The translations under genes were made by a program, and so were the position numbers. From contig NZ_JABMLE010000003.1 of the NCBI RefSeq assembly GCF_013205025.1, positions 1 to 64,000 on the forward strand: a stretch of DNA of 64,000 nucleotides, read 5' to 3'. A model generated the notes under the pieces. That model made no database searches. It saw nothing but the letters and a program-made list of their open reading frames with translations, and was not told where the DNA came from. Positions 4,357-61,339 of this stretch are shown in pieces (within the stretch, counting starts at the first letter, position 1; every line of letters begins with the position of its first letter). This stretch comes from Rathayibacter sp. VKM Ac-2857 (GTDB lineage Bacteria > Actinomycetota > Actinomycetes > Actinomycetales > Microbacteriaceae).

Positions 4357-4716
4357 GGGTCTCGATACGCCGCTGCGCGGCTACTCGACCAGCATGCGCG
4401 GTGCGCTCGCGACCCTCGCATTCATGCTGATCGAGTAGCGGCCGCAGGCCGCGTATCGAGATCCGCCGGCGTCAGCACGCAGGTCTGCAGACCCGCCCTG
4501 CTGGGCACGGCGGGTCTCGATACGCCGCTTTGCGGCTACTCGACCAGCATGCTTCTCGCTGATGAAGAAGCCCGCGCAGCGGACCGTTCATGCTGATCGA
4601 GTAGCGGCCGCAGGTCGCGTATCGAGATCCGCCCGCGTCAGCACGCAGGTCTGCAGGCCCGCCCTGCTGGGCACGGCGGGTCTCGATACGCCGCTCCGCG
4701 GCTACTCGACCAGCAT
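4357..4716. repeat. Cluster of REPIN-like palindromic elements
   Basis: A lone G-type end lies at 4357-4396, followed by two complete elements at 4423-4551 and 4589-4716 (129 and 128 bp). Each starts CATGCTGATCGAGTAG, carries an inner hairpin (GCGGCCGCAGG type), a core containing GTCTGCAG, and ends CTACTCGACCAGCATG. The two complete copies, including their cores, are nearly identical, so one is probably a recent duplicate of the other. No gene is seen in 4307-4788. Confidence 0.9.
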
Positions 4717-4788
4717 GGTGGCCGCCGATCGAGCAGCCCGCGCAGCGGCCCTTCTCACCGGTGGAGCTGCCCGCGGAGCGGACCGCTC

Positions 4789-6147
4789 CTAGGCGACCGG
4801 GCCCTCGACCAGGGTGACGGTGGCCGACTGGACAGTGCCGGCGGCGGTGGTCCAGGTGAGGGTGACCGACTCGCCGGGCTCGCGCTGGGCCAGGTCCGCG
4901 GAGAGGGCGTCGCCCGAGGTCACGGCCGTACCGTCGACCGCGGTGACGACGTCGCCGGCGGCGAGACCCGCGGCGGCCGCCGGGGTGCCCTCGATGACAC
5001 CGGCGATGAGGGCGCCGGCCGCGGTGCTCGCGCCCGAGACGGCTCCGGAGGCGGTGCCCGCCGTCGCGGTGGACGGCAGCGAGACGCCGAGGAAGGCCGG
5101 GTAGCCGATCGCGACGGTCGCCGTGTCGGCGCCCGCTTCGATCGTCGCGACGATGTCGAGGGCGGTCGAGATCGGGATGGCGAAGCCGGTGATGTCGGCG
5201 GTCCCGCTCGAGGCGGCGGTGTCGATGCCGACGACCTTCCCGGCCGAGTCGACCAGCGGACCGCCGGAGTCGCCGGCGACGATGTCCGCGTCGACCTGGA
5301 TCAGGCCGGTCAGCGTCTCGCCGGTGATGCCGGTCTCGGACTGCGTCGTGATGCTCTGGCCGAGGGCCTCGACCGTGCCGGCCGCGGCGACGAGGTTGCC
5401 GGTGCCCTTCGCGTTGCCGACGGCGGTGACGGCGTCGCCGACCGCGACTCCGGCGGTGTCGAGCGTCGCCGGGGTGAGGCCCGAGGCGTTCTCGAGCTGG
5501 AGCACGGCGATGTCGTTCGTCTTGTCGGTGCCGACGACGCGGGCGGTGTAGCTCTGCCCGGTGGTCTCGACGGTGACGGTGACGCTGGTGGAGCCCTCGA
5601 CGACGTGGTTGTTGGTGAGGATCATGCCGTCGGAGGTGAGGATGACGCCGGTGCCGGCCGAGGTCGCGCCCTCGTAGGTGAGGTCGGAGGTGATCGTGAC
5701 GACGCCGGAGATCTGCGCGGCGCTCGCAGCGACGGCGTCGGTCGCGGTGGACGTCGAGGTGGAGCCGGAGGCGCCCGAGCCCGAGCCGTACCCGTAGGCC
5801 GACCCGCTGCCGTAGCCGTACGCCGACGAGGGCCCGCCCGAGTACGGCAACACGACGATGCCGCCGCCGAAGGAGCCGCGGGAACCGCCGGGGTAGACGG
5901 TCGTGGACGCGGTGCTCGACGAGGCGGACGAGGTCGACTCCGCGCTGCCGGCGATCGAGACGCCGCCCGCGGTGACGCCGATCAGCAGCGCGAGGCCGGC
6001 GCCGCCGGCGATCAGGGCGCGGCGACGACGGCGACGGTCGTCGGTCCGGAGCGCCTGGCGCTCCTCAGCGCCGGTGGGGTCCGTCGTGATGGCGGCGGCG
6101 GCACCGGGCTCGCGCTCGGCGCCGTGGGATTCGGGTGACTCGTTCAT
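4789..6147 (-). CDS. HtrA/DegP-type membrane-anchored serine protease with PDZ domain
   Basis: A 452-residue protein. A cytoplasmic N-terminus (1-43) ends in a basic stretch, followed by one membrane segment (44-66) and a low-complexity Ser/Gly/Tyr linker (about 70-135). The trypsin-like domain has the triad His181 (LTNNHVVEG), Asp212 (TNDIAVL) and Ser294 (AGDSGGPL). A PDZ domain occupies about 353-445. It likely degrades or chaperones misfolded proteins outside the membrane. Start at ATG 6147 is supported by GAGGA eight bases upstream. Two CATAG direct repeats lie about 85-100 bases upstream. Confidence 0.93.
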   Translation of the reverse strand: MNESPESHGAEREPGAAAAITTDPTGAEERQALRTDDRRRRRRALIAGGAGLALLIGVTAGGVSIAGSAESTSSASSSTASTTVYPGGSRGSFGGGIVVLPYSGGPSSAYGYGSGSAYGYGSGSGASGSTSTSTATDAVAASAAQISGVVTITSDLTYEGATSAGTGVILTSDGMILTNNHVVEGSTSVTVTVETTGQSYTARVVGTDKTNDIAVLQLENASGLTPATLDTAGVAVGDAVTAVGNAKGTGNLVAAAGTVEALGQSITTQSETGITGETLTGLIQVDADIVAGDSGGPLVDSAGKVVGIDTAASSGTADITGFAIPISTALDIVATIEAGADTATVAIGYPAFLGVSLPSTATAGTASGAVSGASTAAGALIAGVIEGTPAAAAGLAAGDVVTAVDGTAVTSGDALSADLAQREPGESVTLTWTTAAGTVQSATVTLVEGPVA

Positions 6148-6229
6148 GATGCGTCCTCGTGGCCGGGGCCGCCCCTGACGGCGACCGGAGTCCATTCGAC
6201 GACCTCCCGCCCAGGGCCCGCTGGGTGAT

Positions 6230-6250
6230 GCCTATGCCGATCCTATGAAC
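6230..6250 (-). promoter_or_regulatory. Direct-repeat regulator site upstream of htrA (CATAG, 11-bp spacing)
   Basis: On the minus strand TTCATAGGATC is followed by GGCATAGGCAT; the CATAG cores (6243-6247 and 6232-6236) are exactly 11 bp apart. Direct repeats with one helical turn of spacing are typical of OmpR/PhoB-family response regulators. A three-repeat version lies upstream of the DUF4956 operon at 8343-8369. Confidence 0.55.
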
Positions 6251-6303
6251 GTCGGAATCCCCCTCCGCCCCCCTTGTCCAGCGGATCGGCGCGGGAAGGA
6301 AAT

Positions 6304-6319
6304 AGTTGTGGCTACAACT
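6304..6319 (+). promoter_or_regulatory. Palindromic operator upstream of the VOC dioxygenase
   Basis: AGTTGT (6304-6309) and ACAACT (6314-6319) form a perfect inverted repeat with a 4-base spacer; a further half-like GTTGG follows at 6322-6326. It ends 14 bases before the dioxygenase start, overlapping the likely promoter, as expected for a MarR- or PadR-type repressor site. The regulator is not in the immediate neighbourhood. Confidence 0.55.
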
Positions 6320-6333
6320 GAGTTGGACCTAGC

Positions 6334-7215
6334 ATGACCGGCATGACCACCTCCTCCCCCGACCTGCTCGCCCCCGACACCGTGATGGGGGCGGTCACGC
6401 TGCGCGTCGCCGACCTCGACGGGATGGTCGCCTACTACCGCGACGCCGTCCTGCTCGACCTGCTCTCGCAGGACGGCTCGGTCGCGGTGCTCGGCCGCGG
6501 CGGCGTCCCGGCGGTGATCCTGCAGCACGCCCCCGAGCTGCGGCACGCGGCCCCGCGCAGCGCCGGGCTGTTCCACACCGCGATCCTCTTCGAGTCGGAG
6601 GCGGCGCTCGCCGCCGCCGTGCACAGCGTCGCGACCCGGCACCCCGGCTCCTTCACCGGCAGCTCCGACCACCTGGTGAGCAAGGCGTTCTACTTCGACG
6701 ACCCGGAGCACAACGGCGTCGAGCTCTACTGGGACCGCGACCGCACCCAGTGGTCCTGGACGCACGGCCGGATCGAGATGTCGACGCTCTTCCTCGACCC
6801 GAACGCGTTCCTCCAGGAGCACCTGACCGAGGAGGCCATCGCGCAGCCGCGGCTCGGCGGCGCCTCGGTCGGCCACGTGCACCTCAGCGTGGGCGACGTC
6901 GCGACGGCGAAGGAGTTCTACGTCGACCGGCTCGGCTTCGAGACGACGATCGCCTACGGCGGGCAGGCGCTGTTCGTCTCGGCCGGCGGCTACCACCACC
7001 ACATGGCGATGAACACCTGGAACTCGCTCGGCGCCGGGCGGCGGCAGCTCGCGCTCGGGCTGGGGCAGGTCGAGATCGTGGTGCCGGCGGCGGACGATCT
7101 CGGTGCCCTCGGCGAGCGCCTGCGCAGCGCGAAGGTCGCCACGGCGGACGACGGCCGGACGCTGTCCTTCGAGGACCCGTGGGCGAACACGCTGCGGGTG
7201 ACCGCGGCGGTCTGA
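6334..7215 (+). CDS. VOC-family ring-cleavage dioxygenase (CatE/catechol-2,3-dioxygenase-like)
   Basis: A 293-residue protein with two vicinal-oxygen-chelate modules (about residues 15-135 and 178-290). Metal-ligand-like positions include the early module start, the His in GHVHLSVGD and Glu in NGVELYWDRD; YHHHMAMN is characteristic of CatE-like enzymes. It probably opens a catechol or detoxifies a quinone, as the Bacillus CatE/MhqO group does. ATG at 6343 is an alternative start. A palindromic operator lies immediately upstream, suggesting repression relieved by aromatic compounds; this is inference. Confidence 0.82.
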   Translation: MTGMTTSSPDLLAPDTVMGAVTLRVADLDGMVAYYRDAVLLDLLSQDGSVAVLGRGGVPAVILQHAPELRHAAPRSAGLFHTAILFESEAALAAAVHSVATRHPGSFTGSSDHLVSKAFYFDDPEHNGVELYWDRDRTQWSWTHGRIEMSTLFLDPNAFLQEHLTEEAIAQPRLGGASVGHVHLSVGDVATAKEFYVDRLGFETTIAYGGQALFVSAGGYHHHMAMNTWNSLGAGRRQLALGLGQVEIVVPAADDLGALGERLRSAKVATADDGRTLSFEDPWANTLRVTAAV

Positions 7216-7323
7216 GCGGAGGGTCCTGGAGTCCCGTGATCCCGGGACGGATCGCCGGAAAGCCGGGCGGGTACGATGGGCGCGCGGAGATCCGCACAGC
7301 CCCTCGAGACTCCGGAGAACACG

Positions 7324-7572
7324 GTGCCCACGATCGTCGTTGAAGTCATGCCCAAGGCCGAGCTGCTCGATCCGCAGGGGAAGGCCGTCGCCGGCGCGCT
7401 CTCGCGCCTCGGCCACTCCGCCGTCACGGGCGTGCGGGTGGGCAAGCGCTTCGAGATCACCGTCGACGAGGTGACCGACGAGGTCCGCGCCTCGATCACC
7501 GCGCTCGCCGACGAGATTCTGTCGAACTCGGTCATCGAGGACGTCGTCGGCATCCACTACCCGGAGGTCTGA
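7324..7572 (+). CDS. purS: Phosphoribosylformylglycinamidine synthase subunit PurS
   Basis: An 82-residue PurS, the small dimeric subunit that bridges PurQ and PurL in purine biosynthesis. The sequence [20 protein letters not shown] and the ending [11 protein letters not shown] are typical. Start is GTG at 7324 with GGAG eight bases upstream; an upstream in-frame ATG lies in the leader and is unlikely. A -10-like TACGAT is at 7273-7278. purQ follows after two bases, but purL lies 18.5 kb away. Confidence 0.95.
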
Positions 7573-7574
7573 GC

Positions 7575-8273
7575 ATGCGGATCGGCGTCATCACCTTCCC
7601 CGGCTCGCTCGACGACCGCGACGCCCAGCGCGCGGTCCGCTTCGCCGGCGCGGAGCCCGTCGCCCTCTGGCACGGCGATCACGACCTCGACGGCGTCGAC
7701 GCGATCGTGCTGCCCGGCGGCTTCTCCTACGGCGACTACCTGCGCTGCGGCGCCATCGCCTCGCACTCGCCGATCATGCGCGAGGTGATCGACGCGGCGA
7801 ACGCCGGCACTCCCGTCCTGGGCATCTGCAACGGCTTCCAGATGCTGACCGAGGCGCACCTGCTGCCCGGCGGCCTGATCCGCAACGACGTCGGCTCCTT
7901 CGTCTGCCGCGACCAGCGGCTCGTCGTCGAGAACGCCTCCACCGTCTGGACCAGCGACTTCGAGGCCGGCCAGGAGATCACCATCCCGCTGAAGAACGGC
8001 GAGGGCGGCTACATCGCCTCGGCCGAGACGCTCGCGGAGCTCGAGGGCGAGGGCCGCGTGGTCTTCCGCTACCTCGGCGCGAACCCGAACGGCTCGATGA
8101 ACGACATCGCCGGAGTCGCGAACGCGCGCGGCAACGTCGTCGGCCTGATGCCGCACCCCGAGCACGCGGTCGAGCCGGGCTTCGGCCCGGACACCGCGCT
8201 CGCGATGCGCTCCGGCGTGGACGGGCTCGCGTTCTTCACCTCCGCGGTGCGCGCGCTGGTCGCCACGGCCTGA
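7575..8273 (+). CDS. purQ: Phosphoribosylformylglycinamidine synthase glutaminase subunit PurQ
   Basis: A 232-residue class I glutamine amidotransferase that supplies ammonia to PurL. The nucleophilic Cys is in LGICNGFQ, and the His-Glu pair in [10 protein letters not shown]. The N-terminus [20 protein letters not shown] matches the family start. It is separated from purS by two bases and therefore co-transcribed and probably coupled. Confidence 0.97.
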
Positions 8274-8342
8274 CGCCGCGGGAGCAGTGACGGCGGAAGC
8301 CGGGACCGTCGCGATCGGCGGCGCCCGGATCCGAGTGCGAGG

Positions 8343-8369
8343 CATAGACGCGTCATAGGAAGCGCATAG
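8343..8369 (+). promoter_or_regulatory. Three 11-bp direct repeats (CATAG) upstream of the DUF4956 operon
   Basis: CATAG occurs at 8343-8347, 8354-8358 and 8365-8369, exactly one helical turn apart, about 70 bases before the start of the DUF4956 gene. The repeats read GGCATAGACG, GTCATAGGAA and CGCATAGCGA. The same geometry and core appear upstream of htrA, suggesting one OmpR-family response regulator acts on both. Confidence 0.6.
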
Positions 8370-8438
8370 CGAGCGGCGCGTGAATGAGGGGGCCCACCCG
8401 ACCCCCTCCCCCCTCGGGGCCCGCTCTCTGGAGTCACC

Positions 8439-9874: not shown

Positions 9875-9883
9875 GACACCGTC

Positions 9884-11704: not shown

Positions 11705-11772
11705 CCGCCGCGCGGCTCGGCCGACGGGAGACGCGCGCTCCGGCGTCGGCTGCACGGCCGCTGACCCTGCGG

Positions 11773-12023
11773 TGGGCGGATCTCGATCAGCCCGCTGCGC
11801 AGCATGCTGGTCGAGTAGCCCCGGAGGGGCGTATCGAGACCCCGCGTGCAGACGGTGGGGGATCTCGATACGCCCGCTGCGCGGGCTACTCGATCAGCAT
11901 GAAATGACGCGGCGCAGCCGTCCGATCAGCAAGGAACGACGCGGCGCAGCCGTCCGATCGGCAGGGAACGACGCGGCGCAGCCGTCCGATCAGCAAGGAA
12001 GGACGCGGCGCAGCCGTCCGATC
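11773..12023. repeat. REPIN-like element plus 32-bp tandem array
   Basis: A degenerate half-element at 11773-11805 is followed by a complete 99-bp short-class element at 11803-11901 (G-type left end, A-type right end). Next come four units containing GACGCGGCGCAGCCGTCCGA at 11906, 11938, 11970 and 12002, exactly 32 bp apart. The array units resemble decayed outer half-elements (TCCGATCAGCA is similar to TCGATCAGCAT). The 3' ends of two convergent genes flank the stretch. Confidence 0.88.
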
Positions 12024-22610: not shown

Positions 22611-23113
22611 CATGCTGATCGAGTAGCCCGCGCAGCGGGCGTATCGAGATCCACCAGCGCCGGAACGGGAGCCTGCAGACCCGCCCTTCTGGAGCCGGCG
22701 GGTCTCGATACGCCCCTGCGGGGCTACTCGACCAGCATGACCGCGGGCGTCTCCTCCAAGTAGATCCACCACCGCCAGAACAGGAGCCTGGAGACCCGGC
22801 CTCCTGAAGTCGGCGGGTCTCGATACGCCCCTGCGGGGCTACTCGACCAGCATGGCTGCGGGCGTCTCCTCCAAGAAGATCCGCACATCATGCTGATCGA
22901 GTAGCCCGCGGAGCGGGCGTATCGAGATCCACCACCGCCACAACAGGAGTCTGCAGGCCCCCTTCTGCGGACCGTGGGTCTCGATACGCCCCCTGCGGGG
23001 CTACTCGACCAGCATGTCGCGGCCCAGCCGCGTCCTCTCGACCAGCATGGCGCGGCACAGCCGCGTCCTTTCGACCTGCATGTCGCGGCCCAGCCGCGTC
23101 CTTTCGACCAGCA
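22611..23113. repeat. Three REPIN-like elements and a 33-bp tandem array
   Basis: Complete 129- and 128-bp elements lie at 22611-22739 and 22889-23016, both A-type left and G-type right. Between them, 22736-22854 has a normal core and right end but its left arm is replaced by GCGGGCGTCTCCTCCAAGTA, an alternative end seen also near 22855-22880, 31063 and 61170. From 23014 three 33-bp units (ATGTCGCGGCCCAGCCGCGT core) follow at 23014, 23047 and 23080. No gene is seen between 22570 and 23200. Confidence 0.9.
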
Positions 23114-31062: not shown

Positions 31063-31355
31063 GGATCCACTGGGAAGAGACGCCCGCCTGCATGCTGGTC
31101 GAGTAGCCCCGCAGGGGCGTATCGAGACCCGCCGTCCTCAGCAGGGCGGGTCAGCAGCCTCAGGTTCTGACGGTGGGGGATCTCGATACGCCCGCTCCGC
31201 GGGCTACTCGATCAGCACGAGGCTCCCCTGCTGGTCGAGTAGCCCCGCAGGGGCGTATCGAGACCCACCACCCTCAACAGGGCGGGACTGCAGACCCGAC
31301 TCCCGGTGACGCGGGATCTCGATACGCCCTCTGCGAGGGCTACTCGATCAGCATG
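31063..31355. repeat. Two REPIN-like elements with an alternative-end fragment
   Basis: Complete elements lie at 31091-31218 and 31226-31355 (128 and 130 bp), both G-type left and A-type right, the reverse orientation of those at 22.6 kb. Immediately before, 31063-31090 carries the alternative end segment (CTGGGAAGAGACGCCCGC). Degenerate half-elements continue to about 31410. Confidence 0.88.
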
Positions 31356-33151: not shown

Positions 33152-33388
33152 CATGCTGATCGAGCAGCTCGCGCAGCGGGCGCATCCCATGCTGATCGAA
33201 TAGCCCGCGCAGCAGGCGCATTTCATGCTGATCGAGTAGCCCGCGCGCCGTGTGCATTTCATGCTGATCGAGTAGCCCGCGCAGCGGGCGTCTCGAGATC
33301 CACCACCGCCGGAAGACGAGTCCGCAGACCCGTCCTGCTGGTGACGGTGGGTCTCGATACGCCCCTGCGGGGCTACTCGACCAGCATG
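33152..33388. repeat. 36-bp tandem half-element array ending in a REPIN-like element
   Basis: Half-elements beginning CATGCTGATCGA start at 33152, 33188, 33224 and 33260, exactly 36 bp apart. The last is the left end of a complete 129-bp element (33260-33388, A-left, G-right). Inner stems vary between units. The array sits between two co-directional aldo/keto reductase genes. Confidence 0.9.
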
Positions 33389-34300: not shown

Positions 34301-34534
34301 CATGCTGGTCGAGTAGCGCGCAGCGCGTATCGAGACCCACGCTCCGCACGACGGTGGATCTCGATACGCCCTCTCCGAGGGCTACTCGATCAACATGCAG
34401 GACCCGCTCCGCGAGTTTCCTCGATCAGCAGGCGGCCCATGCTGGTCGAGTAGCGCGCAGCGCGTACCGAGACCCACCCACCGGACGACGGCGGATCTCG
34501 GTACGCCCTCTCCGAGGGCTACTCGATCAGCATG
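34301..34534. repeat. Two short-class REPIN-like elements
   Basis: Complete short elements at 34301-34396 (96 bp) and 34438-34534 (97 bp), both G-left and A-right, lacking the GTCTGCAG core. They are near copies of each other with an inner stem of the GCGCGCAGCGCG type on the left and CCCTCTCCGAGGG on the right. Degenerate half-elements lie between and after them. Confidence 0.88.
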
Positions 34535-36335: not shown

Positions 36336-36429
36336 GTCCGCGCCGTGAGCGCGTTCGCGCCGCCCGCACGACAGCGCTTCCGAGCACAGAGTCGTGTCCC
36401 TTTCCGCTCCCCGTCGTCAGGAGACACGC

Positions 36430-39273
36430 GTGTCGTCGATGCTCTACCGACTCGGCCGCTGGGTGTTCCGCGCCCACCGGCTGGTCGCCGTCCTCTGGCT
36501 CGCCGTCGTCGTCCTCGCGGGCGGTGGCGCGCTGCTGCTCAACCAGGGCACGGACAACACCTTCTCCATCCCCGGCACCCAGTCGCAGACCGCGCTGGAC
36601 CAGCTCGAGCGCACCTTCCCCCAGGTCAGCGGCACGTCGGCGCGCTACGTCGTCGTCGCGCCCGACGGCGGCAGCGTCGAGGACGCGGACATCAGCGGCC
36701 CGGTCGGCGAGGCGGTCACCGCGCTCGAGGGGATCGACGGCGTCGCCGCGGTCACCGACCCCTACTCCGACACCGTCGAGGGCACGATCTCCGAGGCCGG
36801 CAACGCGCTGGTCATCACCACGCAGATGGACGGCTCCGCCACCACGACCTCCGAGGCGTCGCGGGACGCGCTCCAGGCCGAGGCCACCACCCTCCAGGAC
36901 GCGCTCCCCGCGGGCGCCGTGGTCTCGCTCGGCGGCGACCTCTTCTCCCAGAGCCTGCCCGGCGTCACCGTCACCGAGGGGATCGGCCTCCTCGTGGCGC
37001 TGGTCGTCCTGGTGCTCACCTTCGGCTCGTTCCTCGCCGCCGGCATGCCGCTGGTGACCGCGCTGCTCGGCGTCGCGCTCTCGATGTCCGCGATCTTCAT
37101 CGCGACCCGCTTCGCCTCGATCTCCTCCACCACGCCGCTGCTGGCGCTGATGCTCGGCCTCGCCGTCGGCATCGACTACGCGCTCTTCATCATCAGCCGG
37201 CACCAGGACCAGCTGAAGCAGGGCATGGCGCCGGAGGAGTCGGCCGCCCGCGCGACCGCGACCGCCGGCTCCGCGGTCGTCTTCGCCGGCCTGACCGTCA
37301 TCATCGCGCTGGCCGGCCTGTCGGTCGCGGGCATCCCGTTCCTCACCACGATGGGCATCGCGGCGGCGGGCGGAGTCGCGATCGCCGTGGTCATCGCGCT
37401 CACGCTCACCCCCGCGCTGCTCGGCTTCGCCGGCGAGCGCCTGCGGCCGAAGGAACGGAAGGCCAAGAAGGCCGCGGCGAAGCAGGCCGCCGCGAACTCC
37501 GGCGCCGAGAAGGCCGCAGCCGTCGGCGCCCACGCCGACCCCGACGCCGCCGAGGACGCCTCCGCCCCCTCCCCCGGCTCGCACGTGCACGCCGAGGTCC
37601 CGCGCGGCTTCTTCCGCGGCTGGGTCCGCGTCGTCACCCGCTTCCCGATCCTCACGATCATCGCCGTCGTCGGGGTGCTCGGCATGGCGTCGATCCCGGC
37701 GCTCAGCCTCCGCCTCGCGCTGCCCGACGCCGGCTACCAGGCCGAGGGCACCCCCGCGCGCGACACCTACGACCTCCTCGCCGAGAACTTCGGCCCCGGC
37801 TACAACGGCCCGCTCATCGTCACCGGCACGATCATCGGCTCGACCGACCCGCTCGGCCTGATGGCCGACCTCAAGACCGAGATCGAGGGCCTGGACGGCG
37901 TCGCCTCCGTGCCGCTCGCCACCCCGAACGAGACCGCCGACACCGGGATCATCCAGGTGATCCCCGAGGGCGGGCCGGACTCCGAGGCCACCAAGGCGCT
38001 CGTCGCCGAGATCCGCGACAAGCACGACTACTTCGAGGAGACCTACGGGGTCGACCTCGCGGTCACCGGCCAGACCGCGGTCGGCATCGACATCTCCGAC
38101 ACCCTGGCGAACGCGCTGCTGCCGTTCGGCCTGCTGGTCGTCGGGCTCTCGCTGGTGCTGCTGACGATGGTCTTCCGCTCGCTCTGGGTGCCGCTCAAGG
38201 CGACGCTCGGCTACCTGCTCTCGGTCGGCGCGTCCTTCGGCGCCGTCGCCGCGGTCTTCGAGTGGGGCTGGTTCGCCGACGCCCTGCACGTGGACAAGAC
38301 CGGCCCGATCATCAGCTTCATGCCGATCATCCTGATGGGCGTGCTCTTCGGGCTGGCGATGGACTACGAGGTGTTCCTCGTCTCGCGGATGCGCGAGGAC
38401 TACGTGCACGGCCGGCCGGCCCGCGCGGCGGTCGAGTCGGGCTTCGTCGGCTCGGCGAAGGTCGTCACCGCGGCCGCGATCATCATGTTCTCCGTCTTCG
38501 CGGCGTTCGTGCCGGAGGGCGACACCAACATCAAGCCGATCGCGCTCGGTCTGGCGGTGGGCGTGTTCGTCGACGCCTTCATCGTCCGGATGACGCTCGT
38601 GCCCGCGGTGCTGCACCTCCTCGGCGACCGCGCCTGGCACATGCCGCGCTGGCTCGACCGGGTGCTCCCCTCCTTCGACGTGGAGGGCGAGGGCCTGACC
38701 AAGGAGCTCGCGCTCGCCGACTGGCCCGAGCCCGGCGCCACCGACGCGGTCGCGGCCGAGGGGCTGTGCCTCGACGGTCCCGACGGCCCGGTCTACCGCG
38801 ACGTCGACGTGCGGGTGCCCGCGGGCGGCGCGCTGGTCGTCCACGGCCCGCACCGCTCGGGCCGCACCGCGCTGCTGCTGACGATCGCGGGGCGCCTCAC
38901 CCCCGACGCCGGCCGGCTCAAGGTCGACGGTCTCGTCGTGCCGATCCGCTCCTCCGCGGTCCGCGGTCGCGTCGGCCTCGTCCGGCTCGCCGGCGCGAGC
39001 GATCCGGTGGCCGAGGTGCGCGCGGCGCTCGAGACGGCCCCGCCGCTGCTCGTGCTCGACGACCTCGACACCGTCACCGACCCGCAGCTCCGCGACGGGA
39101 TCCGCGCCGAGCTCGACCGGGCCCGCGCGAAGGCCGCGCAGAAGCAGCACGCCTTCACGGTGATCGCCTCCTCCGTCGACGCGGACGCGCTCGACGACCT
39201 CCTCCCCTCCGATCGCGGCCAGCTCGCGGTCTCCCCCGCGGCCGAGCGCCGCGCTATCGCGAAGGTCGGCTGA
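36430..39273 (+). CDS. MMPL-family transporter with C-terminal degenerate ABC-ATPase-like domain
   Basis: A 947-residue protein. Two six-helix MMPL/RND repeats (helices about 10-35 and 170-340; 395-420 and 550-740) flank two extracytoplasmic loops; a charged Ala/Lys insert follows the first set. The C-terminal 170 residues look like a shortened ABC ATPase: GPHRSGRTAL as Walker A near 811-820 and PPLLVLDDLD as Walker B near 872-881, but the LSGGQ signature and helical subdomain are missing. GTG 36430 has AGGAGA upstream; a GTG at 36394 and an ATG at 36439 are alternatives. It likely exports a lipid or drug, with the adjacent YhgE/Pip protein. Confidence 0.87.
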   Translation: MSSMLYRLGRWVFRAHRLVAVLWLAVVVLAGGGALLLNQGTDNTFSIPGTQSQTALDQLERTFPQVSGTSARYVVVAPDGGSVEDADISGPVGEAVTALEGIDGVAAVTDPYSDTVEGTISEAGNALVITTQMDGSATTTSEASRDALQAEATTLQDALPAGAVVSLGGDLFSQSLPGVTVTEGIGLLVALVVLVLTFGSFLAAGMPLVTALLGVALSMSAIFIATRFASISSTTPLLALMLGLAVGIDYALFIISRHQDQLKQGMAPEESAARATATAGSAVVFAGLTVIIALAGLSVAGIPFLTTMGIAAAGGVAIAVVIALTLTPALLGFAGERLRPKERKAKKAAAKQAAANSGAEKAAAVGAHADPDAAEDASAPSPGSHVHAEVPRGFFRGWVRVVTRFPILTIIAVVGVLGMASIPALSLRLALPDAGYQAEGTPARDTYDLLAENFGPGYNGPLIVTGTIIGSTDPLGLMADLKTEIEGLDGVASVPLATPNETADTGIIQVIPEGGPDSEATKALVAEIRDKHDYFEETYGVDLAVTGQTAVGIDISDTLANALLPFGLLVVGLSLVLLTMVFRSLWVPLKATLGYLLSVGASFGAVAAVFEWGWFADALHVDKTGPIISFMPIILMGVLFGLAMDYEVFLVSRMREDYVHGRPARAAVESGFVGSAKVVTAAAIIMFSVFAAFVPEGDTNIKPIALGLAVGVFVDAFIVRMTLVPAVLHLLGDRAWHMPRWLDRVLPSFDVEGEGLTKELALADWPEPGATDAVAAEGLCLDGPDGPVYRDVDVRVPAGGALVVHGPHRSGRTALLLTIAGRLTPDAGRLKVDGLVVPIRSSAVRGRVGLVRLAGASDPVAEVRAALETAPPLLVLDDLDTVTDPQLRDGIRAELDRARAKAAQKQHAFTVIASSVDADALDDLLPSDRGQLAVSPAAERRAIAKVG

Positions 39274-39276
39274 CAG

Positions 39277-41589
39277 ATGGCTCTCTTCTCCCTCGAACGC
39301 CCCCGCGGCGTCAAGAAGGTGTCCTGGGTGACCCTCCTCGGCATCGTCCTGGTCCCCCTCGTCATCGGCGGCCTGCTCGTCTGGGCGCTCTGGAACCCGA
39401 CCGAGCGCCTGGACACCATCACGGCGGCGGTCGTGAACGAGGACACCCCGGTCGAGATCAACGGGCAGACCGTGCCGCTCGGGCGCCAGCTCGCGGCCGG
39501 GCTCGTGACCGGAGGCGAGACCAGCGACTCGGCGACTCCCGCGCCGTCCTCGTCCGCCACGCCGTCCGCGTCCGCCGCGCCGTCCGCGTCGGCCACGCCG
39601 TCCGCGTCCGCCACGCCCTCCGCCTCGGCCTCTCCCGCGGCGAACGTCTCGGGCTCCGACTCGACCGGCAACTTCACCTGGGTCCTCACCGACAAGGACG
39701 ACGCCGCGAAGGGCCTCGCCGACGGCAGCTACGCGACCGTCGTCACGATCCCGTCCTCGTTCTCCGCCGCCGCGACCTCCTACTCCGGAGACGCCGCCGC
39801 CGCGACCAAGGCCACGATCGACATCGCGACGAGCGAGAAGGCGAAGCTCGTCGACGACGCCATCTCGGCGACCGTCACGAGCACGGCGACCGCGCTGCTG
39901 AACACCCAGCTCACCACCGCGTACCTCGAGAACGTCTACGTCGGCTTCAACACCCTGAACGAGCAGATCGGCCAGGCCGCCGAGGGCGCGGGCACCCTCG
40001 CGGACGGAGCCGACGAGCTCGGCACCGGCGCCTCGACCCTCGCGGACGGCACCAGCACGCTCGCGGACGGCATCGACGACCTCGCGACCGGCGCCTCCGG
40101 ACTCTCCGACGGAGTGGCGCAGCTCGGCACCGGCGCGTCGTCGCTGGCGGACGGCGTCGCCCAGGTGGGCACCGGTGCGTCGGACCTGTCGGGCGGCGTC
40201 TCGCAGCTCGCGACCGGCGCGCAGCAGTCGGCCGACGGAGCGACGCAGCTCGCCACCGGCGCGGGCTCGCTCGCGGACGGGCTCGACGGTCTCGCCGCCG
40301 GAGTGTCGACGCTCGGCGGCACCGCAGCGACCGCCTCCGGTCTCGCCGCGCAGTCGGCGACCACCACGGGCACCTCGCTCGGGACCATCGCCGCCCTCGC
40401 CCAGTCCTGCGCCGCGACGGACCCCGTCTGCGCGGCCATCCTCGCGGAAGCCGGCAGCCAGCTCGACACCACGAACCAGGCCGGCGCGCTCTACCAGGCC
40501 GGTGCGACCGCGCAGTACGCCGCAGGCATCTCCGCCGGCATCAACGACGGGGCGAACGGGCAGCCGTCCCTCGTCGCGGGGACCGCGCAGTCGGCCGCCG
40601 GTGCGCGCGGGCTCGCCGACGGCGCCGGCTCGCTCGCGGGCGGCCTCAGCCAGCTCTCGACCGGAGCCGCCACCGCAGCCGGTGGAGCGTCCCAGCTCGC
40701 CACCGGAGCGACCTCCGCCGCCGACGGCGCCAGCCAGCTCGCGACCGGAGCGACCTCGGCCGCCGACGGCGCTGTGCAGCTCTCGACGGGTGCCTCCTCC
40801 GCGGCCGACGGCGCCCGGCAGCTCGCCGACGGCGCGGGCGGCGTCTCGGACGGGGCCCTCCAGCTCGCCGACGGCACCCGCTCGCTCGCCACCGGGCTCG
40901 ACGCGGCCGTGGCCCAGCTGCCGACCTACAGCGAGTCGGAGTCGAAGAACCTCGCCGACGTCGTCGCCGACCCGGTCGAGAACTCGAGCAGTACCACCGA
41001 TCTCTTCGGAGCGTCGAGCGTGCCGTTCTTCGCGACGATCGCGCTCTGGCTCGGCGCCCTCGCGACCTTCCTCGTGCTCGCCGCGTTCTCGCACCGCGCA
41101 CTCTCGTCGACCCGCTCCTCCGCGGCGCTGGCGCTGTCGTCGTACGTGCCGGCCCTCGTGATCGGACTCGTGCAGGGCCTCGCCGTCGCGATCGTGATGA
41201 GCGCGGTCGCGAGCCTGGACCTGGTGACCTGGTTCGGCTTCGCCGCGCTGGCGATGCTCGCGGGAGCGTCCTTCGCCGCCGTGAACCAGGGCCTGGTCGC
41301 CCTGCTCGGCGGGCTCGGCCGCTTCGTCTCGATGGTCGCCGCGGTGATCGGCCTCGGCGCCGGCATCATCTCGACCGTCCCGGGCGTCTTCGACGACGCC
41401 CTCGGCTTCCTGCCGCTCTCCGCCGCGCAGAACGCGCTCGCGGGCGTCATCGAGGGCACCGGAGGCGTCGCGGCCGCGGTCGTCGGCCTGCTGATCTGGC
41501 TGCTCTTCGGCCTCCTGCTGACGGTCGCCGCCATCGCCCGCCGCCGCGTCACCTCGGTCCGAGCCCTGACCCGCCCCGTCGAGGCGTAG
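39277..41589 (+). CDS. YhgE/Pip-family membrane protein with long heptad-like repeats
   Basis: A 770-residue protein. A first membrane span (about 18-40) is followed by an extracytoplasmic region with a Pro/Ser/Ala low-complexity insert (about 88-127), then a very long series of seven-residue-like units with xxLADG/xxLATG patterns (about 235-540), and five C-terminal spans (about 580-760). This is the YhgE/Pip architecture, related to ESX and phage-infection proteins and ABC-2 permeases. It starts three bases after the MMPL stop, forming a two-gene TetR-controlled operon. Confidence 0.9.
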   Translation: MALFSLERPRGVKKVSWVTLLGIVLVPLVIGGLLVWALWNPTERLDTITAAVVNEDTPVEINGQTVPLGRQLAAGLVTGGETSDSATPAPSSSATPSASAAPSASATPSASATPSASASPAANVSGSDSTGNFTWVLTDKDDAAKGLADGSYATVVTIPSSFSAAATSYSGDAAAATKATIDIATSEKAKLVDDAISATVTSTATALLNTQLTTAYLENVYVGFNTLNEQIGQAAEGAGTLADGADELGTGASTLADGTSTLADGIDDLATGASGLSDGVAQLGTGASSLADGVAQVGTGASDLSGGVSQLATGAQQSADGATQLATGAGSLADGLDGLAAGVSTLGGTAATASGLAAQSATTTGTSLGTIAALAQSCAATDPVCAAILAEAGSQLDTTNQAGALYQAGATAQYAAGISAGINDGANGQPSLVAGTAQSAAGARGLADGAGSLAGGLSQLSTGAATAAGGASQLATGATSAADGASQLATGATSAADGAVQLSTGASSAADGARQLADGAGGVSDGALQLADGTRSLATGLDAAVAQLPTYSESESKNLADVVADPVENSSSTTDLFGASSVPFFATIALWLGALATFLVLAAFSHRALSSTRSSAALALSSYVPALVIGLVQGLAVAIVMSAVASLDLVTWFGFAALAMLAGASFAAVNQGLVALLGGLGRFVSMVAAVIGLGAGIISTVPGVFDDALGFLPLSAAQNALAGVIEGTGGVAAAVVGLLIWLLFGLLLTVAAIARRRVTSVRALTRPVEA

Positions 41590-41714: not shown

Positions 41715-42093
41715 GGATCTCGATACGCGCGCTGCGCGCGCTCCTCGATCAGCATGAAGGAGGCTCGCTCGGTGAGCGGCCGCCCACCCCGTCGGGCGGT
41801 CGCCCTCCCATGCTGGTCGAGTAGCCGCCGCAGGCGGCCCCATGCTGGTCGAGTAGCCGCCGCAGGCGGCCCCATGCTGGTCGAGTAGCCCCGCAGGGGC
41901 GTATCGAGACCCGCCGTCCTCAGCAGGCCCGGTCTGCAGACTTCACTTCTGACGCTCGTGGATCTCGATACGCCCGCTGCGCGGGCTACTCGATCAGCAT
42001 GAAGGCGCAGGCGCCCCCATGCCGACCGAACAACCGCCGCAGGCGCCCGCCATGCTGGTCGAGTAGCCGCCGCAGGCGGCGTATCGAGACCCC
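41715..42093. repeat. REPIN-like elements with 32-bp tandem half-elements
   Basis: A lone A-type right end (41715-41756) precedes half-elements CATGCTGGTCGAGTAGCCGC at 41809, 41841 and 41873, exactly 32 bp apart. The unit at 41873 is the left end of a complete 129-bp element ending at 42001 (G-left, A-right). A lone G-type left end is at 42051-42093. No gene lies between 41663 and 42107. Confidence 0.9.
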
Positions 42094-44362: not shown

Positions 44363-44674
44363 CATGCTGATCGAGTAGCCGCGGCACGCGGCGTATCGAG
44401 ATCCACCGTCTGCAGGCGTGGGGTCTCGATACGCGCCTGGCGGCGCTACTCGACCAGCATGGAGCGCACGTGCCGATGCGCCGGCTTGGGGCGCACGTGC
44501 CGATGCGCCGACATGGAGCGCATGTGCCGTGCTGCACGCATGGGGCGCACGTGCCGGTGCGCGCGTGGTGCCGACCCATGCTGATCGAGTAGCCGCGGCA
44601 CGCGGCGTATCGAGATCCACCGTCTGCAGGGGTGGCTCTCGATACGCGCCTGGCGGCGCTACTCGACCAGCATG
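44363..44674. repeat. Two short-class REPIN-like elements flanking a 27-bp tandem array
   Basis: Complete short elements (99 and 98 bp, A-left, G-right) lie at 44363-44461 and 44577-44674 and are nearly identical. Between them are four units of about 27 bp with the core GCGCACGTGCCGATGCGCC, starting near 44458, 44486, 44512 and 44539. The whole is a tandem duplication with an internal array. Inner stems use GCCGCGGCACGCGGC and GCGCCTGGCGGCGC. Confidence 0.88.
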
Positions 44675-48621: not shown

Positions 48622-48980
48622 CATGCTGATCGAGTAGCCCGCGGAGCGGGCGCATCGAGATCCGCCGTCGTTCGGTGGGCGGGTCTCGATACGCGCTGCG
48701 CGCTACTCGACCAGCATGGAGGGCGCCCGGTTCATGCTGATCGAGTAGCCCTCGCAGAGGGCGTATCGAGATCCACCACCGCCGGAACGCGAGTCTGCAG
48801 ACCCGCCGTGCTGACGATGGCGGGTCTCGATACGCCGCTGCGCGGCTACTCGACCAGCATGGAATGCGCATGCCCGTCTCTGCGGTGCAGCGCGCCCGTG
48901 CCCGTCCTAGCTGCTCGCGCCGCAGGGTCGGTTGCATGCTGATCGAGTAGCCCTCGCAGAGGGCGTATCGAGATCCGCGG
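48622..48980. repeat. Two REPIN-like elements and a lone end
   Basis: Complete elements at 48622-48718 (97 bp, short class) and 48733-48861 (129 bp, long class), both A-left, G-right, with different inner stems. A lone A-type end is at 48935-48980 and abuts the stop of the next gene. Both length classes side by side show they are variants of one family. Confidence 0.9.
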
Positions 48981-54555: not shown

Positions 54556-54580
54556 GAGGGCGGTCTCCGTTCACAGTGCA

Positions 54581-54607
54581 GTCCGGCCGGCGGGGGCACG
54601 GCCGGAC
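54581..54607 (-). terminator. Hairpin between two small genes of unknown function
   Basis: GTCCGGCCG (54581-54589) and CGGCCGGAC (54599-54607) pair perfectly with a 9-base loop in the 88-base gap between the two minus-strand genes. It may terminate or attenuate transcription into the DUF7882 gene. Confidence 0.4.
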
Positions 54608-54643
54608 GGTACAGGGCGATTCTATCCGCCCCTGGGGATTCGC

Positions 54644-55009: not shown

Positions 55010-55025
55010 GCGTCCTTCCTACCGC

Positions 55026-55694: not shown

Positions 55695-55758
55695 CCGGCC
55701 AGTCTGGGGGTCATCGGCGCCGGTCGGGGAGTCCAGGACGCGTGCCAGCATGAGGTCC

Positions 55759-56367: not shown

Positions 56368-56440
56368 ACAGTTCGGTGGTGTGAGCGGTTCGATGGTCTG
56401 AGCCGCTTCGGTGGTGCGGGCGGTTCGGTGCTGGGAGCAG
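56366..56440. repeat. Short degenerate tandem repeat
   Basis: Four to five copies of a 17-19 base unit built on GAGCGGTTCGGTGGT separate the stops of two convergent genes. It looks like local expansion of one unit; no terminator-like stem is evident. Confidence 0.65.
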
Positions 56441-56453
56441 CCGGGCCGGGTGC

Positions 56454-57866: not shown

Positions 57867-58615
57867 GACGCTCCCTCCATCGAGAGCATCGCGCGCGAGA
57901 TCTCCTCGGCGCTCATCCCACGGCGGTCGTCGACGACGGCTCCGTCGCGGAGGAAGACGATGCGGTCGGCGAAGGCCGCCGCGATCGGGTCGTGGGTGAC
58001 CATCGCGATCGACTGGCCGTACTCGCGGGTCGAGGCGCGGAGGAGGCTGAGCACCTCGCGGCCGGTGCGGGAGTCGAGGTTGCCGGTGGGCTCGTCGGCG
58101 AAGATCAGCTGCGGGCGGGTGGCCAGGGCGCGGGCGATGGCGACGCGCTGCTGCTGGCCGCCGGAGAGCTCGTGCGGGCGGTGGGTGAGGCGCTCGCGGA
58201 GGCCGAGCGACTCGATCAGGCGGGCGATCCAGTCCTCCTCCTCGGCCGTCACGCGGCGGCCGTCGAGCTCGAACGGGAGGCGGATGTTGCCGCGCACGTC
58301 GAGGGTCGGGACGAGGTTGAAGGCCTGGAAGACGAAGCCGACGCTGCGCCGGCGGAGCACGGTGAGCTCGGCGTCGCCCATCGCGGTGATCTCGACGTCG
58401 CCGAGGAAGACGCGGCCGGCCGAGGCGGTGTCGAGGCCGGCGAGCACGTGCATCAGCGTCGACTTGCCGGAGCCGCTGGGGCCCATCACCGCGGTGAACT
58501 CGCCGCGCTCGATCGAGAGGGTGACGTCGTCGAGGGCGACGACGGGCGGCGTGCTGCCGTAGAGCTTGCGCACGCCCTCGACGCGCGCCACGACGGAGGA
58601 GGTCTGGTTCTGCAT
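57863..58615 (-). CDS. ABC transporter ATP-binding protein (MacB/LolD type)
   Basis: A 250-residue ATPase. Walker A GPSGSGKST, Q-loop FVFQAFNL, signature LSGGQQQRVAIARAL, Walker B LIFADEPTGNLD and switch VTHDP. It pairs with the FtsX-like permease encoded immediately downstream. LolD/MacB-type ATPases drive mechanotransmission rather than channel transport. No regulator gene is adjacent. Confidence 0.95.
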   Translation of the reverse strand: MQNQTSSVVARVEGVRKLYGSTPPVVALDDVTLSIERGEFTAVMGPSGSGKSTLMHVLAGLDTASAGRVFLGDVEITAMGDAELTVLRRRSVGFVFQAFNLVPTLDVRGNIRLPFELDGRRVTAEEEDWIARLIESLGLRERLTHRPHELSGGQQQRVAIARALATRPQLIFADEPTGNLDSRTGREVLSLLRASTREYGQSIAMVTHDPIAAAFADRIVFLRDGAVVDDRRGMSAEEISRAMLSMEGAS

Positions 58616-58711
58616 GTCTCCGACGCTACGGAGCCGCCTCTGTCGCGGGCGTCGCCCCGGATGGCCCCCGCCGTCATCCTCCCGGGCGACCCGCCCTGGT
58701 CCCTCCGACCC

Positions 58712-58774
58712 CCGCGAGATGCCACTTATGAGCAGGATCCTCGGCGTGTCGTGCTCATACGTGGCATCTCGCGG
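58712..58774. terminator. Long palindrome, GAGATGCCACTT family, copy 3
   Basis: Arms of 23 bases (58712-58734 and 58752-58774) pair with one mismatch; the outer 14 bases CCGCGAGATGCCAC match copies at 41600 and 47490 while the inner part (TATGAGCA) differs but stays paired. Loop contains CGGCGTGTC as in copy 2. It lies in the 188-base gap between the ABC exporter start and the next gene's stop. Confidence 0.75.
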
Positions 58775-58803
58775 CGGGGATCAGCACGGGGGTGGGGGGC
58801 GGG

Positions 58804-59403
58804 TCAGGGGCGGAGGCCTGCCCGGCGGAGGGTGAGGGCGGCGAGGGCGGCCGTGGCGGCGGGGTCGCCGGCGCGCCAGGCGGGGACGGCCTGCGGGTGG
58901 GCGGCGAGGATCTCGCGCGGGGGCGCCTGGGTCAGGGCGCGGAGGGCCAGCAGCTCGGCGCCGCCGGGGGTCGCGCCGAGCGCGCGCAGCTCGGCGGAGC
59001 GGCGGGCGAAGCGCAGGCGCGGGCGGAGCCAGACCACGGCGAGCAGGAGCAGCGGCAGCCCGCCGACCGCGAGGCCGGCCACGATCGCCAGGGCGCTCGC
59101 GAGCTGCTGCTGGTCGCGGCCGGCCGCGGCGAGCACCGCGCCGGCTCCGCTGGCCTCGTCGAACGGCGCGCGCACGGCGTCGCCGAGCAGCGGGATGCCG
59201 CCGAGCGTCGAGCCGGCGTCGCTCATGGTCGACCCGAAGCCGCTGCCGGCGCTCTCGAGGCGGCGGCCGATCTCGGCGAGGCCCGCGATGAGCGAGCCGA
59301 CGGCGATCCCGGCCGCGATCGCGATCACCGCGACGGCGAGCGCGAGGGCGTCGGCCGTGATCTGGCGGGCGCGGACGGCGGGGAGGTCGGCGTAGATCTG
59401 CAC
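58804..59403 (-). CDS. Membrane protein of unknown function
   Basis: A 199-residue protein with an N-terminal span (about 20-40), a Gly/Ser-rich loop, a second span (about 104-124) and a basic cytoplasmic tail with AELRALGATPGGAELLALRA and a PAWRAGDPAATAALAALTLR ending. Similar actinobacterial proteins are annotated only as hypothetical. It follows purA in the same direction, 66 bases on. Confidence 0.78.
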   Translation of the reverse strand: MQIYADLPAVRARQITADALALAVAVIAIAAGIAVGSLIAGLAEIGRRLESAGSGFGSTMSDAGSTLGGIPLLGDAVRAPFDEASGAGAVLAAAGRDQQQLASALAIVAGLAVGGLPLLLLAVVWLRPRLRFARRSAELRALGATPGGAELLALRALTQAPPREILAAHPQAVPAWRAGDPAATAALAALTLRRAGLRP

Positions 59404-59469
59404 CAGCCGATCATCCCCCGCCGTAGCCGTCGTGCGCGTCGGTGCCGAAGCGGGTCGATCCCGAGCGCC

Positions 59470-60756
59470 TCAGTCGAGGAGGTCGTGCAGGACGACGACC
59501 TGCTCGCGCTCCGGTCCGACGCCGATCGCGGAGAAGCGGGCGCCGCTCATCGCCTCGAGGGCGCGGACGTAGTCCTGCGCGGCCTGCGGCAGGTCGGCGA
59601 ACTCGCGGCAGCCGGTGATGTCCTCCTGCCAGCCGGGGAACTCCTCGTAGATCGGCTTCGCGTGGTGGAAGTCGCTCTGCGAGACGGGGACCTCGTCGTG
59701 GCGCACGCCGTCGACCTCGTAGGCGACGCAGACCGGGATGGTCTCCAGGCCCGAGAGCACGTCGAGCTTGGTGAGCACGAAGTCGGTGACGCCGTTGATC
59801 CGCGCGGAGTAGCGGGCGATCGGGGCGTCGTACCAGCCGCAGCGGCGCGGGCGGCCGGTGGTGGTGCCGAACTCGAAGCCCTGCTTGCGCAGGTACTCGC
59901 CCCACTCGTCGAACAGCTCGGTCGGGAACGGGCCGGCGCCGACGCGGGTCGTGTACGCCTTGATGACGGCGATGACGCGCTCGATGCGGTTGGGCGCCAC
60001 TCCGGAGCCGGTGGCCGCGCCGCCCGAGGTCGCGTTGGAGGAGGTGACGAACGGGTAGGTGCCGTGGTCGACGTCGAGCATCGTGGCCTGGCCGGCCTCG
60101 AAGAGCACGGTCTTGCCGGCGTCGAGCGCCCGGGCGAGGACGAGCGAGGTGTCCGCGACCATCGGGCGCAGGCGCTCGGTGTACTGCAGCAGGTCCTCCA
60201 TGACCTGCTCGACCAGGATCGCGCGGCGGTTGTAGACCTTCACCAGCAGGTGGTTCTTCTGGTCGAGGGCGCCCTCGATCTTCTGCCGGAGGATGTTCTC
60301 GTCGAAGAGATCCTGGATCCGGATGCCGACGCGGTTGATCTTGTCGGCGTAGGCCGGGCCGATGCCGCGCCCGGTGGTGCCGATCTGGCGCTTGCCGAGG
60401 AACCGCTCCGTCACCTTGTCGAGGGTGCGGTGGTAGCTGGTGATGACGTGCGCGTTGGCGCTGACCAGGAGCTTCGAGACGTCCACGCCGCGGGCGCTGA
60501 GCGCCTCGAGCTCGTGGAAGAGCACCTCGATGTCGACGACGACGCCGTTCGCGATGACGGGGACGACGCCCGGCGTCAGGATGCCCGAGGGCAGCAGGTG
60601 CAGCGCGTACTTCTCGTCGCCGACGACGACGGTGTGGCCGGCGTTGTTGCCGCCGTTGAACTTCACGACGTAGTCGACGCGGCTGCCGAGCAGGTCGGTC
60701 GCGCGTCCCTTGCCCTCGTCGCCCCACTGGGCGCCGGTGATGACGATTGCTGGCAT
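59470..60756 (-). CDS. purA: Adenylosuccinate synthetase
   Basis: A 428-residue enzyme that joins IMP and aspartate using GTP, the first step to AMP. Motifs: [12 protein letters not shown] (Arg where most have Lys), [11 protein letters not shown] with catalytic His, [13 protein letters not shown], and [13 protein letters not shown]. The full-length family size. It lies 33 kb from purL, so the purine genes are scattered. No riboswitch is recognised upstream. Confidence 0.97.
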
Positions 60757-60855
60757 GGCGTGTCCTTCGCTGTGCGAAACGGCAGTACCCGGAGACGCCG
60801 GGTGCGGGGCCGGCCGTGCAACGGAGGAGTCGCGACAGGGCGACCAGCCCGAGCC

Positions 60856-60861
60856 AGTTTA
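60856..60861 (-). promoter_or_regulatory. Candidate -10 element of purA
   Basis: TAAACT on the minus strand, about 100 bases upstream of the purA start, is the only AT-rich hexamer in the GC-rich gap. A clear -35 is not visible. Confidence 0.4.
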
Positions 60862-60952
60862 CGGGAGGGCCGCCGCCACTCCCCCGATCACTCCGGGCCC
60901 TCCGCCGCTACGACCCGCAGCACCCGGTCGGCGAGCGCACCGAGGCAGGAAG

Positions 60953-61339
60953 CATGCTGGTCGAGTAGCCCCGCAGGGGCGTATCGAGACCCACCGTCAC
61001 CAGCAGGACGGGTCTGCAGACTCAGCGTCCTGACGGTGGGGCATCTCGATACGCCCGCTGCGCGGGCTACTCGATCAGCATGACTTTACCCATACGCATG
61101 AGGTGCTCTTTCCTACGAGACCCACCCTCATCCACAGGGCGGGTCTGCAGACTCGTCCTTCTGACGCCGGTGGATCTACTTGGAAGAGACGCCCGCAGAC
61201 ATGTTGGTCGAGTAGCCCCGTAGGGGCGTATCGAGACCCCCCACCGCATGAACGGCGGCCTCTTCCCCGCCCTGCGCTGGCGCCGAAGGCGCCCCCCTCC
61301 GCTCGATACGCCCGCTCCGCGGGCTACTCGATCAGCATG
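60953..61339. repeat. Two REPIN-like elements and an alternative-end fragment
   Basis: A complete 130-bp element (60953-61082, G-left, A-right) is followed by a separate core with GTCTGCAG and the alternative end TCTACTTGGAAGAGACGCCC (about 61171-61190), then a 140-bp element at 61200-61339 (G-left, A-right) with an unusual middle. No gene lies between 60757 and 61464. Confidence 0.88.

Follow-up and report, generated by a model that had tools for sequence, protein, structure and literature searches.

Repetitive extragenic palindromic (REP) sequences and their paired forms, the REP doublets forming hairpins (REPINs), are very common in bacterial chromosomes, and their known partner is a Y1 transposase termed RAYT (REP-associated tyrosine transposase). 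In Pseudomonas fluorescens SBW25, the inverted REP doublet was described as a hairpin-forming, extragenic replicative unit that occurs in tandem clusters and leaves singlets as remnants, its repeat families being matched to separate Y1 (HUH) RAYT genes beside REPIN clusters (sections of Bertels and Rainey 2011, PMC3116915). REPs and bacterial interspersed mosaic elements (BIMEs) of E. coli and other bacteria are GTAG-tagged hairpins, one strand of which is discriminated by TnpA-REP, an HUH single-strand nuclease (parts of PMC8266576). Moreover, a large class of CGTC REPs is reported to lack associated transposase genes, and heterodimers are preferred in most REP families (parts of Di Nocera 2013, PMC3733652). 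REPINs, REPtrons and heterodimeric REPs are hence already known. Here we analyze a 64-kb stretch of the genome of Rathayibacter sp. VKM Ac-2857 (the window), which carries REPIN-like doublets of two unlike hairpin repeats. Together with a small GIY-YIG nuclease encoded in related genomes, these probably form a system of cognate nuclease and repeat that parallels RAYT-REP, with the nuclease as the putative agent moving the repeats.

The likeness to SBW25 extends to the inverted doublet, its hairpins and extragenic position, the tandem clusters and singlets, and the matching of repeat families to enzyme genes beside clusters; the partner differs, as no Y1 gene accompanies the repeats described here and relatives carry a GIY-YIG nuclease instead. 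Stem, tail and partner are also distinct from those of the TnpA-REP system. The window repeats share with GTAG REPs the GTAG preceding the stem, and some sister repeats share with CGTC REPs the CGTC following it, GGTTGAGGAGGTTGCGCAGCAACCGTCTCGAAACC; the window lineage itself carries CGTA, not CGTC, the latter being found in sisters with a GAG tag. The main text of Di Nocera 2013 (PMC3733652) names neither actinobacteria nor Nocardioides, and a nuclease link is absent from its parts consulted. Among open-access papers, preprints not included, we found no work linking GIY-YIG enzymes with REPs, a prior description being possible.

Paired hairpin repeats with unlike ends

The window contains 17 doublets of 97–99, 128–130 or 140 bp (counted including four bases at each end), each composed of CTGATCGAGTAG(hairpin)CGTATCGAGATCC, or a sequence close to it, followed by a spacer and by the inverse of CTGGTCGAGTAG(hairpin)CGTATCGAGACC. 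An earlier note made from the sequence of this DNA (the original prediction) had described these copies as REPIN-like, and all are present at the predicted positions apart from a shift of one base (31227, not 31226). The long class comprises copies at 4423..4551 (spacer 49 bp, A end left), 4589..4717, 22611..22739, 22889..23016 (spacer 47 bp), 33260..33388 and 48733..48861 on the forward strand, and at 31091..31219, 31227..31355, 41873..42001 and 60953..61082 (spacer 50 bp) on the reverse strand. Short-class copies lie at 44363..44461 (spacer 18 bp), 44577..44674 (spacer 17 bp) and 48622..48718 on the forward strand, and at 11803..11901 (spacer 19 bp), 34301..34397 and 34438..34534 on the reverse strand. 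A third class is represented by the reverse-strand copy at 61200..61339, with a spacer of 60 bp and an altered 3' arm of the A repeat. CATG is found at both ends of 15 of the 17 copies, and the window has 58 occurrences of the motif CTGRTCGAG compared with 3.05 expected, a number reached in none of 100 shuffles. An Rfam scan of the window yielded no match.

The 4.61-Mb, 8-contig host genome holds 996 exact single repeats and no match to the reversed pattern. In a sample of 464 kb (the window and 20 further 20-kb stretches, ~10% of the genome), we identified 162 repeats and 64 inverted doublets. One A and one G end, predicted for every copy, are present in 17/17 window doublets and in 62/64 of the sample, the remaining two being G/G and none A/A. 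A wider set of 197 doublets contains 193 with unlike ends, three G/G and one A/A, although this set, in contrast to the unbiased 464-kb sample, is biased by relatives' loci (L051–L120) that were retrieved with an A-to-G pattern. Spacers of the 64 doublets measure 17–19 bp (13 doublets), 46–52 bp (40, mostly 49), 59–60 bp (5), 44 bp (4) or 36 bp (2). Lengths are therefore discrete as predicted, with no continuous distribution, but fall into three main classes rather than two, plus a few doublets with spacers of 36 and 44 bp. The 140-bp copy, initially considered an exception, belongs to the third class (59–60-bp spacer, 5/64 sampled doublets), whose A repeats have had their 3' arm replaced. The core GTCTGCAG, described originally as restricted to the long class, is not a clean marker, being found in 7/10 long and 2/6 short copies of the window and in 26/40 long and 2/13 short copies of the sample.

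Both repeats are conserved as hairpins. The A-repeat stem is paired in 97.7% of cells (29 distinct repeats) with two-sided changes at 5/6 pairs, and the G-repeat stem in 95.3% of cells (17 distinct repeats) with two-sided changes at 2/5 pairs, compared with at most 71% for control frames slid by 1–3 bases; the stems are kept by compensatory change. Within single repeats (n = 162), the polarity base forms a G-C pair in 84 cases, A-T in 67 and G-T in two, with nine others. The complete doublet also folds into one hairpin, with z-scores of −6.8 to −10.4 (nine folds of five copies). In this fold the polarity base is mismatched (A·C) on the A-first strand and paired (G·T) on the G-first one, and the latter has the lower folding energy in 4/4 copies folded on both strands (−56.4/−51.7, −46.3/−42.0, −54.8/−53.6 and −51.6/−47.4 kcal/mol for G-first/A-first).

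From the A/G polarity, the original prediction had concluded that the two ends are recognized differently or that the transcript has a defined strand; the data do not establish different recognition of the ends. In another genus (g2), nearly all repeats have GGTC...GACC at both ends and the inner stems of facing repeats differ (judged by eye among the repeats listed). Since these repeats combine equal ends with unlike stems, unlike halves seem to be general, and the A/G difference may be a marker of one lineage, perhaps inherited from a single founder. Identical inner loops occur in 0/64 doublets; as only 0.11 such doublets are expected from random pairing of A and G loops, the unlike halves in the host genome may reflect pure descent. 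Within this genome, a single founder would be sufficient as their source.

Based on gene calls by a crude codon-usage script, none of the 64 REPINs lies within a predicted gene, and they occupy 18/61 convergent, 14/171 tandem and 4/66 divergent gaps (convergent versus divergent, Fisher p 0.0007). Together with the large copy number, this extragenic position of inverted, hairpin-forming doublets upholds their designation as REPIN-like. The A-to-G orientation is uneven along contigs, with five forward and 16 reverse doublets in the sampled stretches from C1:1-820,000 and nine and zero in the first three sampled stretches of C2, counts (L031–L050) that are inflated by tandem copies. Exact repeats range from 0 to 996 across 15 congeners and are present in 8/296 genomes of the class, host included; the element pattern matches Rathayibacter and one Agromyces among the matches listed for the named genome collection. 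Of eight relatives compared at the intergenic site of the copy at 33260, four carry a REPIN there and four do not. Enrichment in convergent gaps and absence from genes could point at elements useful to the host, such as bidirectional terminators or 3'-end protectors, that are selected and multiplied by local duplication and recombination, for which tandem truncated end units (see below) would be an example, with the nuclease link being secondary. We give this explanation little credence, as the copy-number range among congeners and the presence or absence at a shared site fit a mobile element, and purging of harmful insertions leads to the same positional bias.

CATG flanks both ends of 49/64 sampled doublets. 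In combination with the terminal inverted repeats, it could be read as the 4-bp target duplication of ordinary miniature inverted-repeat transposable elements mobilized by a DDE insertion sequence whose terminal repeat would be CATGCTGRTCGAGTAG. Although no search was aimed at DDE families, such an origin is very improbable: direct repeats stop at CATG (mean 0.45 versus 0.34 in shuffled sequences, standard deviation 0.09; 64 doublets), the terminal tetranucleotide varies in relatives (CTTG, CTCG, CGAG) and is sometimes complementary instead of duplicated (in G340, CTCG left and CGAG right), and both ends are conserved hairpins in themselves.

A small GIY-YIG nuclease gene at the repeat clusters

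Movement by a RAYT, as suggested originally, is contradicted by searches with the Y1 transposase profile PF01797, by which positive controls such as E. coli were detected. The host genome yielded no candidate, and in 22 genomes (congeners and other REP-bearing genomes, host included) no match exceeded the cut-off (two weak matches, E = 0.145 and 1.04). Of 150 genomes of the family, one was positive. The repeats could still have been spread by a RAYT since lost from, or missed in, the family, considering that the doublets look like REPINs and that GTAG, the tag of RAYT-linked REPs (parts of Di Nocera 2013, PMC3733652), marks the 5' foot of the stem in nearly all copies listed (the pattern behind the count of 996 exact repeats presupposes GTAG). 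This scenario is mostly refuted, and we consider it highly unlikely in view of the profile searches and of the other tags (GAG, CAG, GTG, CTTG) that stand in place of GTAG in sister repeats next to related nucleases.

Candidate autonomous copies were defined as pairs of facing repeats that had no other partner and were separated by more than 250 bp; 102 sequences contained five such pairs. Four enclose ordinary-looking genes and one (L063) a small GIY-YIG nuclease gene, the only gene found to be tightly bound by facing ends. In Rathayibacter sp. VKM Ac-2856 (G408), the nuclease open reading frame lies between an A-type and a G-type REP. A gene flanked by the same ends, as the original prediction had envisaged, is hence present in relatives, but encodes a GIY-YIG nuclease instead of a Y1/RAYT-like transposase. 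The protein of ~100 amino acids consists of a single domain matching PF01541 (E = 3.2e-15, 56.6 bits), with PDB 1ZG2 and 1YWL as closest solved structures. Residues Y15, G17, R25, H29 and E62 are invariant in 12/12 nucleases and Y5 is conserved in 11/12, the alignment thus retaining the catalytic Tyr, Arg and Glu columns. UPF0213/YazA-type proteins (1ZG2, 1YWL) likewise consist of one ~100-residue GIY-YIG domain with these catalytic residues; yazA, unlike the REP-flanked gene, is located among housekeeping genes without flanking repeats (two Bacillaceae loci examined). GIY-YIG homing enzymes typically have extra C-terminal modules (parts of Dunin-Horkawicz 2006, PMC1564403), in contrast to the single-domain nuclease. 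PHROGs and PADLOC returned nothing useful.

Homologues were found in 16/31 genomes searched, and in 11 genomes of two families (four Rathayibacter, two of genus g2, two of g3 and three of family f33, perhaps Nocardioides) they reside in or beside GAGTAG-type repeat clusters. Flanking stems vary between genomes and, where listed (e.g. G239, G204, G219), resemble the host genome's own repeats; G117 and G265 show no exact match to the stricter repeat pattern. In G239, 12 repeats surround the nuclease gene (two with one mismatch), compared with 28 exact repeats in the entire 3.6-Mb genome. The nuclease genes are under purifying selection, with nonsynonymous divergence (dN) of 0.02–0.14, synonymous divergence (dS) of 0.23–0.97 and dN/dS of ~0.05–0.22 in nine of ten pairs; the dN/dS of 0.8 for the pair L204–L205 is probably distorted by an indel, because the calculation used no gaps.

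Gene and REPs occupy at least three sites in the genus, those of G408/G446 and G340/G447 being ~20 kb apart, and G447 carries a second, frameshifted nuclease copy elsewhere. The G408/G446 site is unoccupied in G447 (16 bp), measures 52 bp in G444, where it includes a fragment of a repeat end, and harbors repeats without a nuclease gene in G340 and G448. The corresponding intergenic site of the host (L239) is a variable site. Doublets beside the gene have 19-bp spacers in G408, as in the short class, and 48–50-bp spacers in G340 and G447, as in the long class; the G408-type and G340/G447-type enzyme pairs form separate branches and are 82–83% identical, while G446, on the branch of G408, has no tight doublet beside its gene. 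That the two length classes are traces of two nuclease lineages is only a suggestion from this comparison of one genome with two.

GIY-YIG genes of G450 (L186) and G187 (L201) are flanked by GGTTGAGCCTGCCGAAA and TGGGTTCCTGAGCCTGCCGAAGGG repeats. This is a repeat family whose translated forms, PEPVEG and SLSKG, are common in bacterial proteins.

Correspondence of nuclease lineage and repeat type

A profile built from 12 nucleases gave 54 matches in 33 of 59 genomes searched in the genus of G156. For an estimate of how generally such genes are flanked by repeats, the longest word common to the 700 bp on either side of the gene was compared with 40 shuffles for 71 located loci, L203, L254 and L284 having been dropped beforehand as repeats of L200, L185 and L261; three loci were skipped for short flanks, leaving n = 68. 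All shuffles are exceeded at 59/68 nuclease loci, compared with 1/18 regions 30 kb away (18 of 20 usable) and 0/12 uvrC-type loci (large frames taken to be UvrC). By the rule of an 18-bp shared word, the respective numbers are 52/68, 0/18 and 0/12, and 4/358 for genes of the REP-rich host genome.

Many of the flanking repeats fit a superfamily of the form GGTYGAG-tag-stem-CGARACC, with TAG, GAG, CAG, GTG, CTTG/CCTG and others as tags. No tag could be assigned in 12/71 loci, and "no tag" was counted as a label on a nuclease tree of 69 rows (2/71 below 70 amino acids were left out), which has few columns and rough supports. Tags change 21 times on this tree compared with a shuffled mean of 45, and 0/200 shuffles gave as low a number. 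The tag agrees between a nuclease and its nearest counterpart from another genome in 47/58 cases (shuffled mean 10.2, maximum 20), and in 41/50 (shuffled 8.6) within genus g51 of family f33 alone, whereas only 2/25 pairs of paralogues from the same genome share a tag. Comparing 47/58 across genomes with 2/25 within genomes, we therefore conclude that the repeat type follows the enzyme, not the host.

In other phyla, 10 of 15 plasmid-borne GIY-YIG matches were examined. Both Methylobacterium loci exceed all shuffles, with shared words of 15 and 21 bp, of which only the second passes the 18-bp rule, and a follow-up search gave no further Methylobacterium record. These two megaplasmid genes (L321, L322; one frameshifted) are flanked on both sides by repeats containing CCTCATCCTGAGGTG and CCTCGAAGG; these parts are similar to GAGGTGC...GCCTCGAA, the core of GTG-tag repeats from genus g51 of f33.

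A number of results weigh against a cognate partnership. At the level of single loci, 9/68 fail the flank test and 16/68 the 18-bp rule, and the flanks of the other eight of the 10 plasmid-borne loci do not exceed every shuffle. The host assembly, with most REPs of all, gave no match to the nuclease by BLAST, and its only PF01541 match is a 681-residue frame taken as UvrC; its counterpart of the G408/G446 site (C3, ~720.9–722.0 kb) contains an Abi_2 gene (PF07751, E = 1e-45) with an adjoining ABC transporter gene. Only 5/12 REP-bearing congeners have a nuclease match, that of G450 lying beside another repeat family. The doublets show no direct repeat beyond CATG, and we know of no GIY-YIG nuclease with strand-transfer activity.

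Several of these observations would also suit a nuclease gene that is a passenger, i.e. a homing-type nuclease that cleaves or enters REP arrays and uses them as safe sites while another agent spreads the REPs. The host and six other REP-bearing congeners are without a nuclease match, and in L181 the gene resides in a REPIN spacer between two intact REPs, as its insertion would give; homing enzymes cleave only the uninterrupted target (parts of Dunin-Horkawicz 2006, PMC1564403). A repeat-specific passenger could moreover produce the cognate pairing seen in 47/58 comparisons. On the other hand, a second, unseen enzyme would be required, and lineage-matched repeat types with paralogues each in their own cluster look more like partner and substrate. 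Overall, we regard the passenger explanation as unlikely, though worth serious consideration, and favor a cognate nuclease that may move its repeats.

Further repeats of the window and a candidate mechanism

Beside the 17 doublets, the window contains five unpaired repeats, namely G-type REPs at 4358..4392 and 22816..22850 (both reverse strand) and 42055..42091 (forward), and A-type REPs at 41716..41752 (reverse) and 48939..48975 (forward). Truncated end units are arranged in tandem just outside full elements: three A-end units, each terminated by CATG, at 33156..33263 (forward) upstream of the REPIN at 33260, and two G-end units of 32 bp each at 41813..41876 (forward) before the REPIN at 41873. 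Similar units are found in L045 (6116–6146) and L050 (18923–18953, 19252–19282). Each combines the first 14–28 bp of the repeat with the flank as far as the following CATG, with a period of ~30 bp, and breakpoints lie near GCAGGG of the hairpin loop. Such units look like products of hairpin-induced template switching. The right flank of some copies (61192 in the window; L034, L040, L043, L045, L048, L049, L050) runs into ...GCGTCTCTT, followed mostly by CCAAGTAGATCC and then REPIN spacer (nine places, some of another sort); these flanks are apparently truncated REPINs with a replaced 5' half. A 959-residue MMPL-type transporter and, after it, a 770-residue ABC-2-type membrane protein are encoded at 36394–41586 and bear no relation to the repeats.

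According to the cognate scheme, the window copies would be non-autonomous elements composed of two unlike, facing hairpin REPs and an intervening spacer of fixed length, and their partner would be the single-domain GIY-YIG endonuclease encoded within or beside such clusters in relatives, nuclease and repeat presumably evolving as matched pairs like RAYT and REP elsewhere. The nuclease may bind the folded repeat and cut at or near its ends (CATG|CTG in the window lineage), after which repair could copy the REPIN to another location. As no GIY-YIG strand transfer is known to us, insertion would need host repair. Owing to the A/G polarity, the two strands of the folded element are not alike, and this difference could orient the enzyme; the polarity may instead reflect descent from one founder. 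Host copies may be orphaned, or served by a gene that was lost recently or is missing from the assembly.

A broader reading, which we put forward tentatively and with somewhat less than even confidence, is that GIY-YIG proteins constitute a second, independent class of REP partners beside the HUH RAYTs. Single-domain enzymes, each recognizing its own repeat, would then move or maintain a widespread actinomycete repeat superfamily, possibly including alphaproteobacterial and CGTC-tagged REPs, with length classes and unlike ends as traces of nuclease lineages and strand discrimination. If true, a tightly matched nuclease of quite different fold would explain REP populations in RAYT-less genomes and provide a testable enzyme for them, and would suggest more than one origin of such repeat-enzyme pairs. 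Collectively, the data hint at an unrecognized way for repeats to spread.

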